From contig QMZD01000004.1 in assembly GCA_003662985.1 (NCBI GenBank), positions 1 to 22,456 on the forward strand: a stretch of DNA of 22,456 nt. The letters are read 5' to 3'. The first letter of the stretch is position 1; each line of letters starts with the position of its first letter. Shown one piece after another: positions 4 to 9,479 of this stretch. A program made the translations under genes and the position numbers. The DNA is from Archaeoglobales archaeon. GTDB taxonomy: Archaea > Halobacteriota > Archaeoglobi > Archaeoglobales > Archaeoglobaceae. A model generated the notes under the pieces. That model was not told where the DNA came from. It saw nothing but the letters and a program-made list of their open reading frames with translations, and did not search any database.

Positions 4-76
4 TGGACTCGCCGGGATTTGAACCCGGGGCCTCCGCCTCGCGAAGGCGGCGCTCTTCCAGCTGAGCTACGAGCCC
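4..76 (-). tRNA. tRNA-Ala (anticodon CGC)
   Basis: Reading the minus strand gives a complete 73-nt cloverleaf. The acceptor arms GGGCTCG and CGAGTCC pair over seven positions, and the third pair is the G3:U70 wobble that marks tRNA-Ala. The anticodon stem CCGCC/GGCGG encloses TTCGCGA, so the anticodon is CGC and reads GCG (Ala). The T arm CCGGG-TTCAAAT-CCCGG is canonical and the discriminator base is A. The CCA tail is not encoded, because TTT follows, so it must be added after transcription. No intron is visible. Identity is nearly certain from anticodon plus G3:U70. Confidence 0.97.
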
Positions 77-184: not shown

Positions 185-595
185 CTAACTCATTTCCAGA
201 ATCTCGACCTCAAATCCCTCATATACCCCTTTGATCTTCTCGAAATCCCTGTCAAGAGTTATGAGTTTCTCTTTTGCCCCAATACATATGGAAGAGATCA
301 TTATATCTGCATCATTGATCGACACACCTTTCTCTTTCAGCATTGCCCAGATATACGATGCTATTCTACTTTCTTCACTCCCGAATGGCAGAACTGAGAT
401 CTCGGAAAGAAGACTCATGATTACATTCATCTCCCTATCGCTGTGTCTTGTCAGCCTGACAAAAATCGCCCCCCTCAGCAATTCATAGGCAGTGATGGAC
501 GTAATTTTTACATCCTCATCCACGATTTCCCTCATATCTCTGTAAAAATCCCTATTCTTAAGAATTTGGAGAACGATCGACGTATCAAATATCAA
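185..595 (-). CDS. vapC: PIN-domain ribonuclease toxin VapC
   Basis: This is a 136-aa single-domain PIN protein, the usual length for a VapC toxin (Mg2+-dependent RNase that cleaves tRNA or rRNA). The acidic active-site residues are visible: D4 in the opening MIFDTS, E38 in SITAYELLRG, D95/D97 in SINDADIMI, and D115 in LITLDRDF. The start is TTG; no ATG lies at the right place, and the N-terminus MIFDTS is exactly where PIN domains begin. The TTG lies inside the end of vapB (11-bp overlap), so the two are translationally coupled and the weak start may keep the toxin below antitoxin level. Its RNA target cannot be read from sequence. Confidence 0.9.
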   Translation of the reverse strand: MIFDTSIVLQILKNRDFYRDMREIVDEDVKITSITAYELLRGAIFVRLTRHSDREMNVIMSLLSEISVLPFGSEESRIASYIWAMLKEKGVSINDADIMISSICIGAKEKLITLDRDFEKIKGVYEGFEVEILEMS

Positions 596-806
596 AATCT
601 CTCACCTCGAAGGATTTTCTTCCTCTCACCACGACTTCAAAGAGGTCGCTCTCTTCCAGCGATCCCGCATACCTCCCAAAAACTTCCAGAGATTTCTCCT
701 TTTTTTCTTCGATCAATCTAAGGATCACGTCTGAAAAGGATTCTCCTTCTCTCTTCATCTGAGAAAGCTTGTTGTAAACCTCGTCCCTTAAAACTATATT
801 CTTCAT
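585..806 (-). CDS. vapB: VapB antitoxin
   Basis: A 73-aa protein matching the VapB/DUF217 type of antitoxin. It begins MKNIVLRDEVYNKL, the small N-terminal DNA-binding strand and helix, followed by the family's ESFSDVILRLIEEK segment. The acidic/basic C-terminal tail would wrap the toxin. The reading frame is open upstream, but ATG at 804-806 is chosen because it begins the conserved domain and lies about 27 bp after a TATA box. It precedes and overlaps vapC by 11 bp. VapB proteins normally neutralise VapC and repress their own promoter. The target operator is not evident here. Confidence 0.88.
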   Translation of the reverse strand: MKNIVLRDEVYNKLSQMKREGESFSDVILRLIEEKKEKSLEVFGRYAGSLEESDLFEVVVRGRKSFEVRDFDI

Positions 807-828
807 ACATTTATATATACATGAACAG

Positions 829-837
829 TATTTAAAT
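829..837 (-). promoter_or_regulatory. TATA box of vapBC
   Basis: ATTTAAATA on the minus strand is centred about 27 bp before the vapB ATG, placing the transcription start at or next to the start codon. The transcript would be leaderless; no Shine-Dalgarno sequence precedes vapB. Confidence 0.55.
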
Positions 838-948
838 TCTTCTGTCCAATAAGACGATTCAGGTTTAAGAAGATTGAAGAAAGATCGAAGAATCTGCAAA
901 AAAGGAAAGATTGGAAACTGTATGAATTTGGATGAAATTTTTAGATTT

Positions 949-4282: not shown

Positions 4283-4486
4283 ATGGCTGAGTTACCCGCT
4301 GCACCAGTTGAAAGATTGATTAGAAATGCTGGTGCCAACAGAGTTAGTGCTGACGCCGTTGCGAAAATGGTAGAGATCCTCGAGGATAAGGCAACCGAAA
4401 TCTCCAAGAAGGCAGTTGAGGTTGCCAAGCACGCTGGAAGGAAGACAGTTAAGGCAGAAGACATAAAACTCGCCCTAAGAACCTAA
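4283..4486 (+). CDS. Archaeal histone
   Basis: A 67-aa protein made of a single histone fold, the length of HMf-type archaeal histones. It opens with the family N-terminus [18 protein letters not shown], followed by RVSADAV, the long central helix and the C-terminal helix [15 protein letters not shown]. The R/K-T pair in GRKTVKAED is the conserved L2-loop DNA contact. Dimers and longer multimers wrap chromosomal DNA. There is no tail extension. It has its own strong promoter and ribosome site and is followed by T-rich DNA, so it is monocistronic. It stands divergent from acyl-CoA dehydrogenase, with a large repeat-bearing regulatory gap between. Confidence 0.97.
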
Positions 4487-5442: not shown

Positions 5443-8103
5443 TTAACTCTGGCTTTTCGAGACGGTTGAGTTTATTTTTTTCAGAACCTCGCCCAATTTC
5501 TCGAGCATCTCTCCAAAACCGCTCCAGTTACCCTTTTTGATTTCTTCAAGGGCTTTCTCATACAATTCAACTCCCAGCTTTGCCAAGGAATTAAGATCTT
5601 CTGCCATCGGTTGCTCAGGAGCCTTAGCTTCTCCGAAAACATACCTTATCGAGCTTTGCAAATCCGGTTTCATGACGAGGTGATTCTCGTAAGAGACTAC
5701 AACACCCCTCAACTCAGGTATCTGAGCATTTTCAGCCCTCAGATAAACGGGTTCAACATAGATTATCGAGTTATCGATTGGGATAACGAGAAGATTGCCC
5801 CTTATTATCCTGGAGCCTGCCTGACTCCAGAGTGTGAATATCTTGGAGATTTCTGGATCTTGATCGATCCTCGCTTCGATCTGCATTGGTCCATAAACGA
5901 GTGTTCCTTTCGGAAATTCATAAAGTAGGATTTCTCCATAGTTTTCGTCACACCTCGCTGCCATCCAAGAGATTATGTTGTCTCTGTCCTTGGGGGAAAA
6001 GGGTAACATGAGCAAAAACTCGGGCTTGTTTTCAGCTATGGTTATAATAACGTAATAGGGCTCTATATCGATTATATGCTCTTCAAAAAGTTCTGTTGGA
6101 ATTTCCCAAACATCTTCTTTGTTGTAAAATGTCCTTGGATCGTCCATGTGGTAGATAGAGTAGATTTCAGCCTGTATTTTGAAAAGATCAACTGGATAGC
6201 GGATGTGACTCTTCTCCTCCGGACTCATCTTCTCAAATGGTATGAAAAGCTCGGGAAAGGCTTTAGTTAAGGTTTTTATAACCGGCTCATCACTCATTAC
6301 GTAAAATTCCATACTTCCATTGTACGCATCGATGAAAATCTTCACTGAGTTTCGGATATAGTTAAAAGGCTTCCCATAGACGACCGCTGCAGAGTAGGGG
6401 AAATTGTTCAAAGTCGTATATGCATCAACTATCCAGTAAAGCTTACCATCGATGATGGCTATGTAGGGATCACGATCGTAACTCAGATATGGGGCAATTG
6501 TATAAACTCTTTCCATTATCTGCCTGTGCATCATAATCCTGCTCTCTGGAGAGATATAGCTAGTGAGAAGTAAATTGATGTCGCCAAACTTCATGCTAAA
6601 GAGGAGTTTTTTCAGGAAGCTGTCGATCGGTACTCCTCCCGTCCCATTGTAAGTGGAGAAAACGTTCTTCTCTCCCGAAGGATAATCGAATTCCTTTTGG
6701 AGGGTTTTTACGATGACATAATCCCTCGTGATTTCCCCATAGTATATCTCTGGCCTTTCAACCTTGATTACACCCGTAGGAGGAATGTCATAGACAAAGA
6801 GCTCCGGTCTGCCTTCCTCAGAAACAGCATTAACTGGAGAGGCTATAACACCGTAACCATGGGTGTAAATCAGATGTCTGTTCACCCAAGTTTGAGCGGT
6901 GGTTGGAAGAAGATCGGGAGAGAGCTCTCTCGCAGAAACCATCAGCTGAGTATAATTTCCATTGATAAAGTATCTGTCAACATCAACATCGTTGATGTAG
7001 TAGTACGTTCTTATCTGCTGGATTTGCCGGTAGACGCTCAAAAGGGGCCTGTGATCCCACAGCCTTATATTCTCAATTATCCCTGAGTTTTTCTCGATGC
7101 TTTCAATGGTGAGCGTGCCTTTAACGGGGTAAACCTTCTTTTTCACGTCAAGCCCGTATGCAATCCGAGTATAATTTATGCTGTAACCTATAAACTTCTC
7201 CTCCAACGATAACTCGTTTGGGTCCACTCTTATTTTCTGAAATGCAAATGGAATTAGAACCAATCCTATGAACACCAATGCAATAAGAACGAAAAAGACC
7301 AAAGCATACATCTCCGCCTGTCTTTTCACCCCATAGTAAATAGATGCACCCGCCAGAGCGAATGAGGCTATAGAAAGTATGAGCATCGCTGGCATCCTTA
7401 TGAAAACATCCGTATAACCTGCACCTTTAACAACGCCCATCTGTGAGCTCAATAGATCGTATCTTCCGATATACAGATAAACACCTGCTAAGATCATGAT
7501 GGATGCGATAAGAACGGAGATATGGATGAACCCCGCTCTCGGAAAAAGGTCTTTGAATTCCTCAAAACTCTTCACCCACCTAAAAATTAAGAAATAATAT
7601 ATAATGGAGATTATCAAGCAAAAAACTATCAGAACAAAGAGAACGTTTATCAGATCTTTTATGAAAGGCAGTTTGAAGGCATAAAAAGAGACATCAATAT
7701 CAAATATAGGATCTTTCACTCCGAATTCCTGTCCATTCAAGAAAAAGACAAGGTTAACCCAGTTCCTTGATAAAACATAGGGAAAAAAGAGTGAAAGGAC
7801 AAGGAACACCCAGCTCGGAACCTTAAGAGGTTCACCCAAAAATTCCTCACTCGCCATATGCATTGCCAATCTGTTTAGAAAGAAGATAACAAGAGATATA
7901 ACAAAAAATATTCCAAAGAGTTCAACTCTGTAATATAAGACCTTAAGAAAATAATCTCCAAGTTTTAGAGAATCAAACCACAAATACTCCGTATAAAGGA
8001 AGACAAAGGTCGAAAATGAAATTATCAACACAAGAAGAATGAAGAGAAGAGCAAGTATCCTCTTGTCAAGGGGTGCTGAGATTTCAAATCGTTCCTGAGA
8101 CAC
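5443..8103 (-). CDS. UPF0182 family integral membrane protein
   Basis: An 886-aa protein of the UPF0182 (COG1615) type, of unknown function. The first third has about seven hydrophobic helices, near residues 16-37, 62-78, 93-110, 145-170, 187-210, 230-255 and 262-290. A large, mostly soluble region follows, presumably outside the cell, containing the family-typical block TTAQTWVNRHLIYTHGYG and SPVNAVSEEGRPELFVYDIP. A helical C-terminal tail, from about 835, is rich in Leu/Lys/Glu. The start is GTG at 8101-8103; a TATA box ATTAAATAG (8127-8135 on the minus strand) sits about 26 bp upstream, so the message is leaderless. Length is normal for the family (about 850-1000 aa). No functional partner is encoded beside it. 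Confidence 0.88.
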   Translation of the reverse strand: MSQERFEISAPLDKRILALLFILLVLIISFSTFVFLYTEYLWFDSLKLGDYFLKVLYYRVELFGIFFVISLVIFFLNRLAMHMASEEFLGEPLKVPSWVFLVLSLFFPYVLSRNWVNLVFFLNGQEFGVKDPIFDIDVSFYAFKLPFIKDLINVLFVLIVFCLIISIIYYFLIFRWVKSFEEFKDLFPRAGFIHISVLIASIMILAGVYLYIGRYDLLSSQMGVVKGAGYTDVFIRMPAMLILSIASFALAGASIYYGVKRQAEMYALVFFVLIALVFIGLVLIPFAFQKIRVDPNELSLEEKFIGYSINYTRIAYGLDVKKKVYPVKGTLTIESIEKNSGIIENIRLWDHRPLLSVYRQIQQIRTYYYINDVDVDRYFINGNYTQLMVSARELSPDLLPTTAQTWVNRHLIYTHGYGVIASPVNAVSEEGRPELFVYDIPPTGVIKVERPEIYYGEITRDYVIVKTLQKEFDYPSGEKNVFSTYNGTGGVPIDSFLKKLLFSMKFGDINLLLTSYISPESRIMMHRQIMERVYTIAPYLSYDRDPYIAIIDGKLYWIVDAYTTLNNFPYSAAVVYGKPFNYIRNSVKIFIDAYNGSMEFYVMSDEPVIKTLTKAFPELFIPFEKMSPEEKSHIRYPVDLFKIQAEIYSIYHMDDPRTFYNKEDVWEIPTELFEEHIIDIEPYYVIITIAENKPEFLLMLPFSPKDRDNIISWMAARCDENYGEILLYEFPKGTLVYGPMQIEARIDQDPEISKIFTLWSQAGSRIIRGNLLVIPIDNSIIYVEPVYLRAENAQIPELRGVVVSYENHLVMKPDLQSSIRYVFGEAKAPEQPMAEDLNSLAKLGVELYEKALEEIKKGNWSGFGEMLEKLGEVLKKINSTVSKSQS

Positions 8104-8330
8104 GTTAATAAATCTACTTCAGATACTATTTAATCTTTTGGTGATTTGGGGGGTTATTGAGCTAAATACTGAGTATCAACTGCGAATTGTAGCCATCAAA
8201 CATAAAGTTTATTTCATAAAATACTTCATAAATATTTCACAAGACGTTTGTGTCTGAATACTTATACCCCTAAAAATCACCATATAGAGCAGTGGATTAC
8301 CATCTAAACACCTAAGTTGTCTAATACTCC

Positions 8331-8358
8331 AAAAAAATTCTCGGCAAGGTATTAAAAC
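8331..8358 (-). terminator. T-rich 3' end of the structured RNA
   Basis: Directly after the last ACA box, the minus strand reads GTTTTAAT and then, about 20 nt further, a run of seven T (8331-8337). Either could end transcription of the RNA at 8359-8580. The remaining DNA to the UPF0182 promoter shows nothing recognisable. Confidence 0.45.
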
Positions 8359-8430
8359 TGTCCCCCGGGAACTAACGCCGCCTTTCACAGCATTGCTATG
8401 CAGCCTCCGGCAGCTGACCCTTTCTCGGGG
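8359..8430 (-). other. H/ACA hairpin 3 of the guide RNA, pocket complementary to 23S helix 69
   Basis: Lower stem CCCCGAGAA (8422-8430) with TTCCCGGGG (8363-8371), 8 of 9 positions paired. Upper stem GCTGCC (8409-8414) with GGCGGC (8377-8382). GGA (8406-8408) faces UGA (8385-8387), and the apical stem is GCAT/ATGC. ACA is at 8359-8361, 15 nt after the upper stem. The pocket is AGGGTCA on the 5' side and GTTAG on the 3' side, predicting the target UAAC-(psi)N-UGACCCU. This equals the archaeal 23S helix-69 region as I remember it (UAACUAUGACCCU), with the modified base at E. coli position 1915. Confidence 0.8.
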
Positions 8431-8502
8431 TGTGCCATGCATGGGTTGTCCCGGAATCAAAGCTGGCAAAGCCCACTCATCCGGGGACCTAATATGCATG
8501 GC
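8431..8502 (-). other. H/ACA hairpin 2 of the guide RNA
   Basis: Lower stem GCCATGCAT (8494-8502) with ATGCATGGC (8434-8442), a perfect 9-bp helix. Upper stem GTCCCCGG (8481-8488) with CCGGGAC (8448-8454), with one bulged C. GGA (8480-8482) faces UGA (8457-8459). ACA is at 8431-8433, 14 nt after (exclusive of) the upper stem. The pocket is ATTAG on the 5' side and AACCC on the 3' side, giving the predicted target GGGUU-(psi)N-CUAAU. No rRNA site was identified from memory. Confidence 0.78.
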
Positions 8503-8508
8503 CTATGA

Positions 8509-8578
8509 TGTGCCCCCTAACTTGCAGAAAGCTTCATCGCTTGCCTCGCACACTCCGCTTCCTCCCCGTTCGGGGGGC
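8509..8578 (-). other. H/ACA hairpin 1 of the guide RNA
   Basis: Lower stem GCCCCC (8573-8578) with GGGGGC (8512-8517); upper stem AGGAAGC (8557-8563) with GCTTTCT (8526-8532), containing one G-U pair. GGA (8554-8556) faces UGA (8534-8536) below a small TGC/GCA apical stem. ACA is at 8509-8511. The pocket is about GAACGGGG on the 5' side and GCAAGTTA on the 3' side. The predicted target is UUGC-(psi)N-CCCCGUUC; I could not place it in rRNA from memory. Confidence 0.72.
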
Positions 8579-8599
8579 ATAATTATTTTGTTCTTAAGA

Positions 8600-8608
8600 C
8601 TAAAAATA
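8600..8608 (-). promoter_or_regulatory. TATA box of the H/ACA guide RNA
   Basis: TATTTTTAG on the minus strand is centred about 25 bp before position 8579, just where the first hairpin begins. This supports an independent minus-strand transcript starting at or next to the structured region. Confidence 0.6.
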
Positions 8609-8622
8609 CTTTTTGTACTTTA

Positions 8623-8650
8623 TTGTAATCTTTGTAATCAAATTGTAATC
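8623..8650. repeat. Three direct copies of TTGTAATC between divergent promoters
   Basis: TTGTAATC occurs exactly at 8623-8630, 8632-8639 and 8643-8650 (start-to-start 9 and 11 bp, roughly one helical turn). The array lies between the TATA box of the guide RNA (minus) and that of the metallo-hydrolase gene (plus). It could be a binding site affecting one or both promoters; no protein can be named. Confidence 0.5.
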
Positions 8651-8662
8651 AAAAACGACAGG

Positions 8663-8670
8663 TATTTAAG
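8663..8670 (+). promoter_or_regulatory. TATA box of the metallo-beta-lactamase-fold gene
   Basis: TATTTAAG (within GGTATTTAAGATT) is centred 25 bp before the ATG at 8691, giving a leaderless transcript. Confidence 0.6.
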
Positions 8671-8690
8671 ATTGGAATCGAAATTCCTTC

Positions 8691-9479
8691 ATGGATCTCG
8701 AGGTGAGACAGGTTACGAATTCTTTAAAGCTCGTTAGAGTTGGCCTGATAAACTACTATCTCTTCGACTCCCTGCTGTTCGACTGCGGCACAACATGCAC
8801 AGCTTTAAAACTGATAGAGAGTCTGGATCGTTCCATCCAGTCCATCGTTGTGTCCCACGCCCATTTCGATCATATCGCTGGCTTGGCTGTAATAAAGTCA
8901 AAGTTTCCCGATGCGAGAGTTTTTGCCCATGAAAGAATAGCGGGGTTGGTAAAGAAGGACAAGGTTATTGAAACCTGGAATGAAGAAAACCGGGAATTTT
9001 GCAATAAATTCGGAGAGAATGTAGACCCATTTAATCTCGACTTTGAAATAGAAAACGTAAGTACAGAAAACTTCCCAGAACATTTAAAGATAATCGAGAC
9101 ACCCGGACACTCCCCGGATGCGATTTCCCTTTTAAACGAAAAGGAAGGATTCATGCTCGTCGCCGATGCTCTCGGCTACCCCCTGTCTTCGGGAAAAAAC
9201 ATCCCGATGTACTTCCACAGCTTCTCAAAATACATAGAGAGTATTGAGAAAATAAAATCTCTCACAGACAAGGTTTGCCTTGGCCACAACGGTGCAATTT
9301 TCAATTCTGAATACTGCGATGTTGCGATAGAGGAGGCTTTTAAGCTGAAGGACGAGATCCAAGGGGGTTTAACTGAAGAAGATGTGTTCAAGCGAATCTA
9401 CAAAGAGGAGATGTCTCTCTACCCCCTTAGCACAATAAAAGCCGTTGCAAGACTTCTTGTAAAGAGGTCTCTTGAATAA
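8691..9479 (+). CDS. Metallo-beta-lactamase-fold hydrolase
   Basis: A 262-aa MBL-fold protein, probably a glyoxalase-II-like or related hydrolase. The metal-binding motif HxHxDH is present as SHAHFDH (H56, H58, D60, H61). Further ligands are H140 in TPGHSP, D159 in LVADALGYP and H199 in LGHNG, so the two-metal site is complete. The N-terminal YYLFDSLLFDCGTT is the usual first strands of the fold. The substrate is not determined; this superfamily includes thioesterases, lactonases and flavoprotein partners, and no flavodoxin or rhodanese domain is fused here. ATG 8691 is supported by a TATA box 25 bp upstream (leaderless). The gene is monocistronic and converges on the secretion ATPase gene with a 67-bp gap. 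Confidence 0.88.
   Translation: MDLEVRQVTNSLKLVRVGLINYYLFDSLLFDCGTTCTALKLIESLDRSIQSIVVSHAHFDHIAGLAVIKSKFPDARVFAHERIAGLVKKDKVIETWNEENREFCNKFGENVDPFNLDFEIENVSTENFPEHLKIIETPGHSPDAISLLNEKEGFMLVADALGYPLSSGKNIPMYFHSFSKYIESIEKIKSLTDKVCLGHNGAIFNSEYCDVAIEEAFKLKDEIQGGLTEEDVFKRIYKEEMSLYPLSTIKAVARLLVKRSLE

Follow-up and report, generated by a model that had tools for sequence, protein, structure and literature searches.

The locus and the predicted fold

The stretch of DNA analysed here, referred to as the window, comprises 22,456 nucleotides of a contig from an Archaeoglobales archaeon, and the features considered in it are collected in Table 1. Two divergent genes, one for a UPF0182 protein and one for a metallo-beta-lactamase-fold protein, start at 8103 and 8691, respectively; between them lies the 587-bp gap in which a sequence-only reading of the same DNA had placed, on the minus strand, a box H/ACA guide RNA with three hairpins. 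The segment concerned is indeed a GC-rich island, with 59% G+C, whereas the flanks on its two sides within the gap have 31% and 24%. When 8350-8590 is folded, as that reading had advised, the minimum-free-energy structure consists of three hairpins (-97.4 kcal/mol, z -2.92; an equally low energy was reached by 0 of 200 shuffles), and the ACA box expected at the end of each hairpin is present on the minus strand in all three cases. The spacing between upper stem and ACA is 14 nt in hairpin I and 15 nt in hairpin III, as had been proposed; the 14 nt proposed for hairpin II belong to the minimum-free-energy register, which is one among several, and the distance to the ANA box is larger in the other registers.

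Upstream of hairpin I, where a TATA box had been suspected, there is an A/T-rich block that also recurs, by eye, in the relatives G003 and G004 (genomes are designated by G numbers). A TATA box at this place is plausible, and we put it no higher because TATA-consensus scoring favoured other places in many of the sequences. A scan of 8200-8760 with a bacterial promoter pattern found one match against 1.3 expected and so carries no information, and a plasmid search gave no match. As far as Rfam goes, the impression of an unannotated RNA was correct: at the gathering threshold, no RNA family matches 8359-8578.

Table 1. Features of the window, with position, strand and basis of the assignment
Feature	Position	Strand	Basis
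HgcG-like H/ACA guide RNA, whole, three tandem hairpins, 220 nt	8359..8578	-	RF00064 match, fold, homologs
Hairpin I, ACA at 8509-8511; pocket fits best the 23S counterpart of P. abyssi U2588	8509..8578	-	
Hairpin II, ACA at 8431-8433; pocket GGUC / ACAACCC fits two 23S U in alternative registers	8431..8502	-	
Hairpin III, ACA at 8359-8361; pocket GGUCA / GUUAG fits the helix-69 uridine of 23S rRNA	8359..8431	-	
A/T-rich promoter-like block AAAAAGTATTTTTA, putative	8601..8614	-	23-36 nt upstream of hairpin I, by eye
UPF0182 protein, 886 aa, function unknown	5443..8103	-	Pfam PF03699, E 3.3e-270
tRNA gene	4..76	-	only family that Rfam reports from the window at its gathering threshold
Two small overlapping ORFs, similar in look to a PIN-toxin/antitoxin pair	185..899	-	resemblance
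67-aa ORF, similar in look to an archaeal histone	4283..4486	+	resemblance

The neighbours of the RNA were surveyed by tblastn over 15 loci of about 3 kb. The lactamase-fold gene adjoins the RNA in the window, in G001-G004 and in G018; the G015 locus has a weak match to it (25% identity), and in the G005 locus none was found. UPF0182 stands beside the RNA solely in the window and in G003. The RNA thus persists at loci whose neighbouring genes differ. Going by the neighbouring protein, the nearest named relatives are Archaeoglobus sp. JdFR-27 and the isolate GB_MAG3_049.

Family match, distribution and conserved structure

The covariance model of the family RF00064 (HgcG/Pab40), run against 8100-8700 with an E-value threshold, aligns over its full length (model positions 1-276) with 8354-8634 of the minus strand, at 61.2 bits and an E-value of 4.1e-16 (3.5e-16 for the match within its own genome). 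The gathering score of 77 is not reached, and it is for this reason that a standard Rfam scan is silent on HgcG here; this cut-off is a threshold set by the curators and not a biological trait. Used as a query, the window DNA reaches G020 (E 1e-15), G029 (5.5e-14), G036 (5.5e-12) and G023 (1.8e-10), and at those same four loci RF00064 scores above its cut-off, with 83.5, 90.1, 88.9 and 91.5 bits, respectively. The link to the family thus does not depend on the sub-threshold score alone.

Among 60 whole genomes, the window's own and its relatives, 40 have an RF00064 match at E <=0.01 and 29 exceed the cut-off, while none was found in 14 control genomes. The matches follow kinship: they occur in 34 of the 36 genomes that share the window's family, in both genomes of another family of the order, in both of the class, and in 2 of the 20 more distant genomes of the phylum. 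All six genomes of the window's genus have exactly one, below the cut-off in every case (49.5-69.2 bits). The two members of this family in which no match was found are G007, whose assembly is 81% complete, and G028, at 99%; the other genomes of the genus g4 to which the latter belongs (G008, G019 and G035) do have one, and loss, an assembly gap or loss in filtering are alternatives for its absence in G028. Second, weak matches of 21.7-33.7 bits were seen at G015:C1:686136-686339, G025:C214:4884-5053, G016:C18:94127-94304 and G027:C1:438959-439091, and are perhaps other H/ACA RNAs of these genomes.

The alignment draws on 34 of the 40 genomes with RF00064; it omits G024, which is nearly the same as G032, G033, whose copy is truncated where the contig ends, and G037, whose locus came from blastn, as well as G039, G044 and G052. 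Hairpin I was aligned in 33 sequences (alignment A2), G020 having no extracted hairpin I, and hairpins II and III in 34 each (A3 and A4). The sequence-only reading would have been called into question by stems that lack compensatory changes among related genomes; such changes are present, RNAalifold giving both-side changes in 8 of 14 predicted pairs of hairpin I, 13 of 20 of hairpin II and 8 of 13 of hairpin III. Only hairpin II was counted formally, because the lower stems of hairpins I and III are in part misaligned in A2 and A4. In its 34 sequences (33 distinct), 88% of the cells are paired and 12 of 16 pairs have changes on both sides, with the proviso that lower-stem starts were chosen by complementarity, which favours pairing there. 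The covariation score of 0.382, compared to 0.174 in shuffles, was matched by 0 of 500, and slid structures scored at most 0.115; one of the five measures, the number of further pair types, was not above the shuffles (24 vs 23.5). While the stems carry these compensatory changes, the pocket loops are nearly constant.

The boxes are conserved in position. An ANA box ends the extracted hairpins I, II and III in 33/33, 34/34 and 34/34 sequences, and this is ACA in 28/33, 34/34 and 23/34, respectively, the rest being AAA, AGA or ATA; extraction demanded ANA (ACA for hairpin II, with T also allowed as first base for hairpin III), so that the position is informative and the count is not. In G020, hairpin I has, by eye, an ACA 13 nt after its GCATG. 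The facing elements that had been read as K-turns are likewise general: GA followed by UGA, a loose sequence pattern, is found in 33/33, 34/34 and 33/34 of the extracted hairpins I, II and III.

Complementarity of the pockets to rRNA

The window's own assembly (80.7% complete) yielded neither 16S nor 23S rRNA, and the guides were therefore scored against the rRNA of G005, the single genome of the genus with both rRNAs complete. Altogether, rRNA was sampled in 16 genomes (23S from 10 and 16S from 12), position 1 being the base at which the Rfam match to the rRNA begins. Hairpin III finds its best site at 23S U1961 with a score of 27.0 (second site 16.0), equalled by 0 of 300 shuffled guides. 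The best site for hairpin I is 23S U2532 (26.5, second 21.0; equalled by 4 of 300), and when the guide is extended by one 3' nucleotide it is 16S U1166 (20.5, second 18.0, as raw scan scores). Hairpin II fits 23S U2622 when read as GGUC/AACCC (24.0, second 14.0; equalled by 6 of 300) and 23S U2591 when read as GGU/ACAACC (25.5, second 16.5; equalled by 0 of 500). Hairpin II was tried in four registers and hairpin I in two, and the shuffle counts are uncorrected for this choice. Judging by sequence contexts and position numbering, U2532 is probably the equivalent of P. abyssi 2588 and U2622 that of Haloarcula 2621.

The same sites recur when the guides of other genomes are compared with their own rRNA. 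For hairpin III, the helix-69 uridine is the top site in 10/10 genomes. The U2622-type site of hairpin II (GGUC/AACCC) is likewise found in 10/10, and the U2591-type (L2601-type) site in 9/10, G026 being the exception; in G006, G018 and G027 the latter leads by merely 20.0 vs 19.5. For hairpin I, the U2532-type site is recovered in 9/10 genomes by at least one of two rules for cutting out the guides (7/10 under the first rule, G020 and G026 under the second, and G012 by neither). These counts should be read with the behaviour of the rules in mind: the first gave no guide for hairpin II in 8/10 genomes, and for hairpin I it took a wrong 3' guide in two genomes (G026, G012) and found none in G020, while the second misplaced the upper stem of hairpin I and so missed the site in 7/10. 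In nine chosen sequences, five of which were scored against G005 rRNA, hairpin I ranks the U2532-type site first in 9/9, and in its longer register ranks the 16S 1166/1167-type site first in 7/9 and second in 2/9. The 23S site of G026 is TTTGC[T]ACATC where CTTGC[T]ACCTC is usual, and the guide of that genome is GCGAA and GGGATG where GCAAG and CGGGG are usual; guide and target have changed jointly.

Hairpin II can be drawn in more than one form. In the minimum-free-energy fold, which is also that of the sequence-only reading, GUCCC pairs with GGGAC 14 nt before the ACA. We rejected the idea that the hairpin guides in this closed form, since 131 of 300 shuffled guides did as well as the best match of its pocket to rRNA. 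Opening the hairpin frees GGU(C) and (A)CAACCC, which are almost invariant and fit two 23S uridines. In the closed form 97.0% of the upper-stem cells pair and 0 of 5 pairs show a both-side change, compared to 86.5% of cells and 4 of 7 pairs in the slipped form, and RNAalifold returns a hybrid in which the closing pairs remain, one C is bulged out, and three of the slipped form's four changing pairs recur. These structure counts do not choose between the two forms, and it is from complementarity to rRNA only that we infer the opening. Since it has already been suggested that refolding allows Pab40 to reach the 2621-type site (PMC2584109), the opening is at most a refinement.

Known orthologs, alternative explanations and proposed function

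The ortholog in G035 has its sites at 16S 1167, 23S 2606 and 23S 1975. We presume this genome to be that of A. fulgidus DSM 4304. For this species, PMC4652768 assigns Af4.1 to S1167, Af4.2b to L2601 and Af46 to L2639, and states that Af4.3, a close relative of Pa40.3, can guide L1970; the 23S sites 2606 and 1975 both lie 5 above L2601 and L1970, and 16S 1167 equals S1167. As the published Afu-4 targets coincide with those of G035, the A. fulgidus ortholog is Afu-4. The sequence-only reading had pointed to Afu-46 as the related RNA; judged on targets, we reject it as the ortholog, none of the top sites listed for G035 falling at the equivalent of L2639.

The counterpart in Pyrococcus is Pab40, which guides P. 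abyssi 23S U2588 in vitro (PMC6138745) and is the same as HgcG and RF00064, with Pa40.1 directed to L2588 and Pa40.3 to L2016 (PMC4652768). PMC2584109 treats Pab40 as a homolog of Pf7, assigns the 1956-type site (E. coli 1915) to Pf7 and Afu4, and notes that HP1, which is of the hairpin II type, could guide 2621 (E. coli 2586). The window RNA resembles HgcG/Pab40 of Pyrococcus and Pf7 of P. furiosus in its three tandem H/ACA hairpins, in its full-length match to the model, and in the sites of hairpins I and III, which are equivalent to L2588 and L2016; it differs from HgcG/Pab40 in its weaker score, and while Pa40.2 has a 3' guide sequence of 23 nt (PMC4652768), the pocket of hairpin II is compact. 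Afu-4 shares the sites recovered for G035 but has diverged in sequence, and hairpin I of the window favours the L2588-type site (25.5) over the 16S 1167-type site (20.5). Hairpins II and III correspond to HP1 (2621) and HP2 (1956/1958) of Haloferax volcanii (Hvo1/Hvo2), going by PMC2584109.

With three conserved tandem hairpins of the RF00064 type, a full-length alignment to the model and pockets that are complementary, on G005 rRNA, to the known sites of the family, the minus strand of 8359-8578 almost certainly encodes a box H/ACA sRNA with three hairpins, the ortholog of HgcG/Pab40/Pf7/Afu-4 in Archaeoglobus; the triple-hairpin guide RNA of the sequence-only reading is thereby borne out. 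A guide RNA of another family directed to other sites, for example a relative of Afu-46, the H/ACA RNA of A. fulgidus that had been named beforehand (PMC4652768), is very improbable: RF00064 is by far the best family, the Rfam match of Pab160 to hairpin I is at chance level (E 6.9), and Afu-46, compared here by its published targets, is assigned to a site other than the three Afu-4 sites that the G035 ortholog matches.

We give next to no credence to a decayed or non-functional copy of HgcG. The score below the Rfam cut-off, shared by all six genomes of the genus, might suggest one, as might the outermost position of the lower stem of hairpin III, where A stands against G; each of the six has its single match, however, and the guide loops and ACA boxes are intact and the stems maintained by compensatory change. 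It is just as hard to believe that the conserved element is protein-coding or a cis-regulatory leader or terminator between the divergent genes. ORFs of 96 and 114 aa do overlap the RNA, and 8200-8760 contains three terminator-like patterns compared to 0.4 (sd 0.7) in shuffles, the three being made up of hairpin I and hairpin III sequence; but single-base indels relative to G003 at three places make a protein frame across the RNA unlikely, on which the earlier proposal would also have foundered, conservation tracks stems and pockets, and the neighbouring gene differs among relatives.

As an HgcG ortholog, the RNA would be expected to work as other members of its family do. L7Ae would bind the apical K-turn or K-loop of each hairpin, and Cbf5-Nop10-Gar1 would bind along the stems and at the ACA; the internal loop would base-pair with the rRNA flanking a target uridine on either side, and Cbf5 would convert that uridine to pseudouridine. 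Hairpin I would thus direct modification of the 23S counterpart of P. abyssi U2588, with the published 16S site of Afu-4 as a possible second target; for hairpin II the target would be the 23S counterpart of A. fulgidus L2601, the Haloarcula 2621-type uridine, or both; and for hairpin III it would be the uridine in helix 69 (2016 in P. abyssi, L1970 in A. fulgidus). That the window RNA is transcribed, binds these proteins and directs modification is assumed here by analogy with its relatives. As for the machinery, the own assembly encodes Gar1 and two L7Ae-type proteins above cut-off, together with two weak partial matches to the C-terminal part of Cbf5; Nop10 was not found in this assembly, of which 80.7% is present. 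The Cbf5/Nop10 gap is best put down to that incompleteness, since both proteins score above cut-off in 6/6 relatives tested. The Cbf5 match at G005:C1:90885-91835 (-) contains one TGA, which may be a frame end or a real stop.

We also considered, as a rather unlikely extension, that hairpins I and II have been conserved as guides with two registers, in which the pocket slides by 1-2 nt and each hairpin serves two uridines. The possible pairs would be the 23S L2588-type and 16S 1167-type sites for hairpin I, and the 23S L2601-type and 2621-type sites for hairpin II. If this were true, five pseudouridines would be directed by one RNA of 220 nt, and the near-invariant GGUC/CAACCC loop of hairpin II would be kept by double selection.

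The family has long been known, and the RNA is a conserved, functionally ordinary and here added member of it, so that the finding is useful as an annotation correction. Annotation that relies on the RF00064 cut-off would probably miss HgcG in the genus of the window, and an alignment of the present sequences could help to mend the model. Hairpin II, in addition, is a case in which the fit of a single guide loop to two uridines of 23S rRNA can be put to the test.
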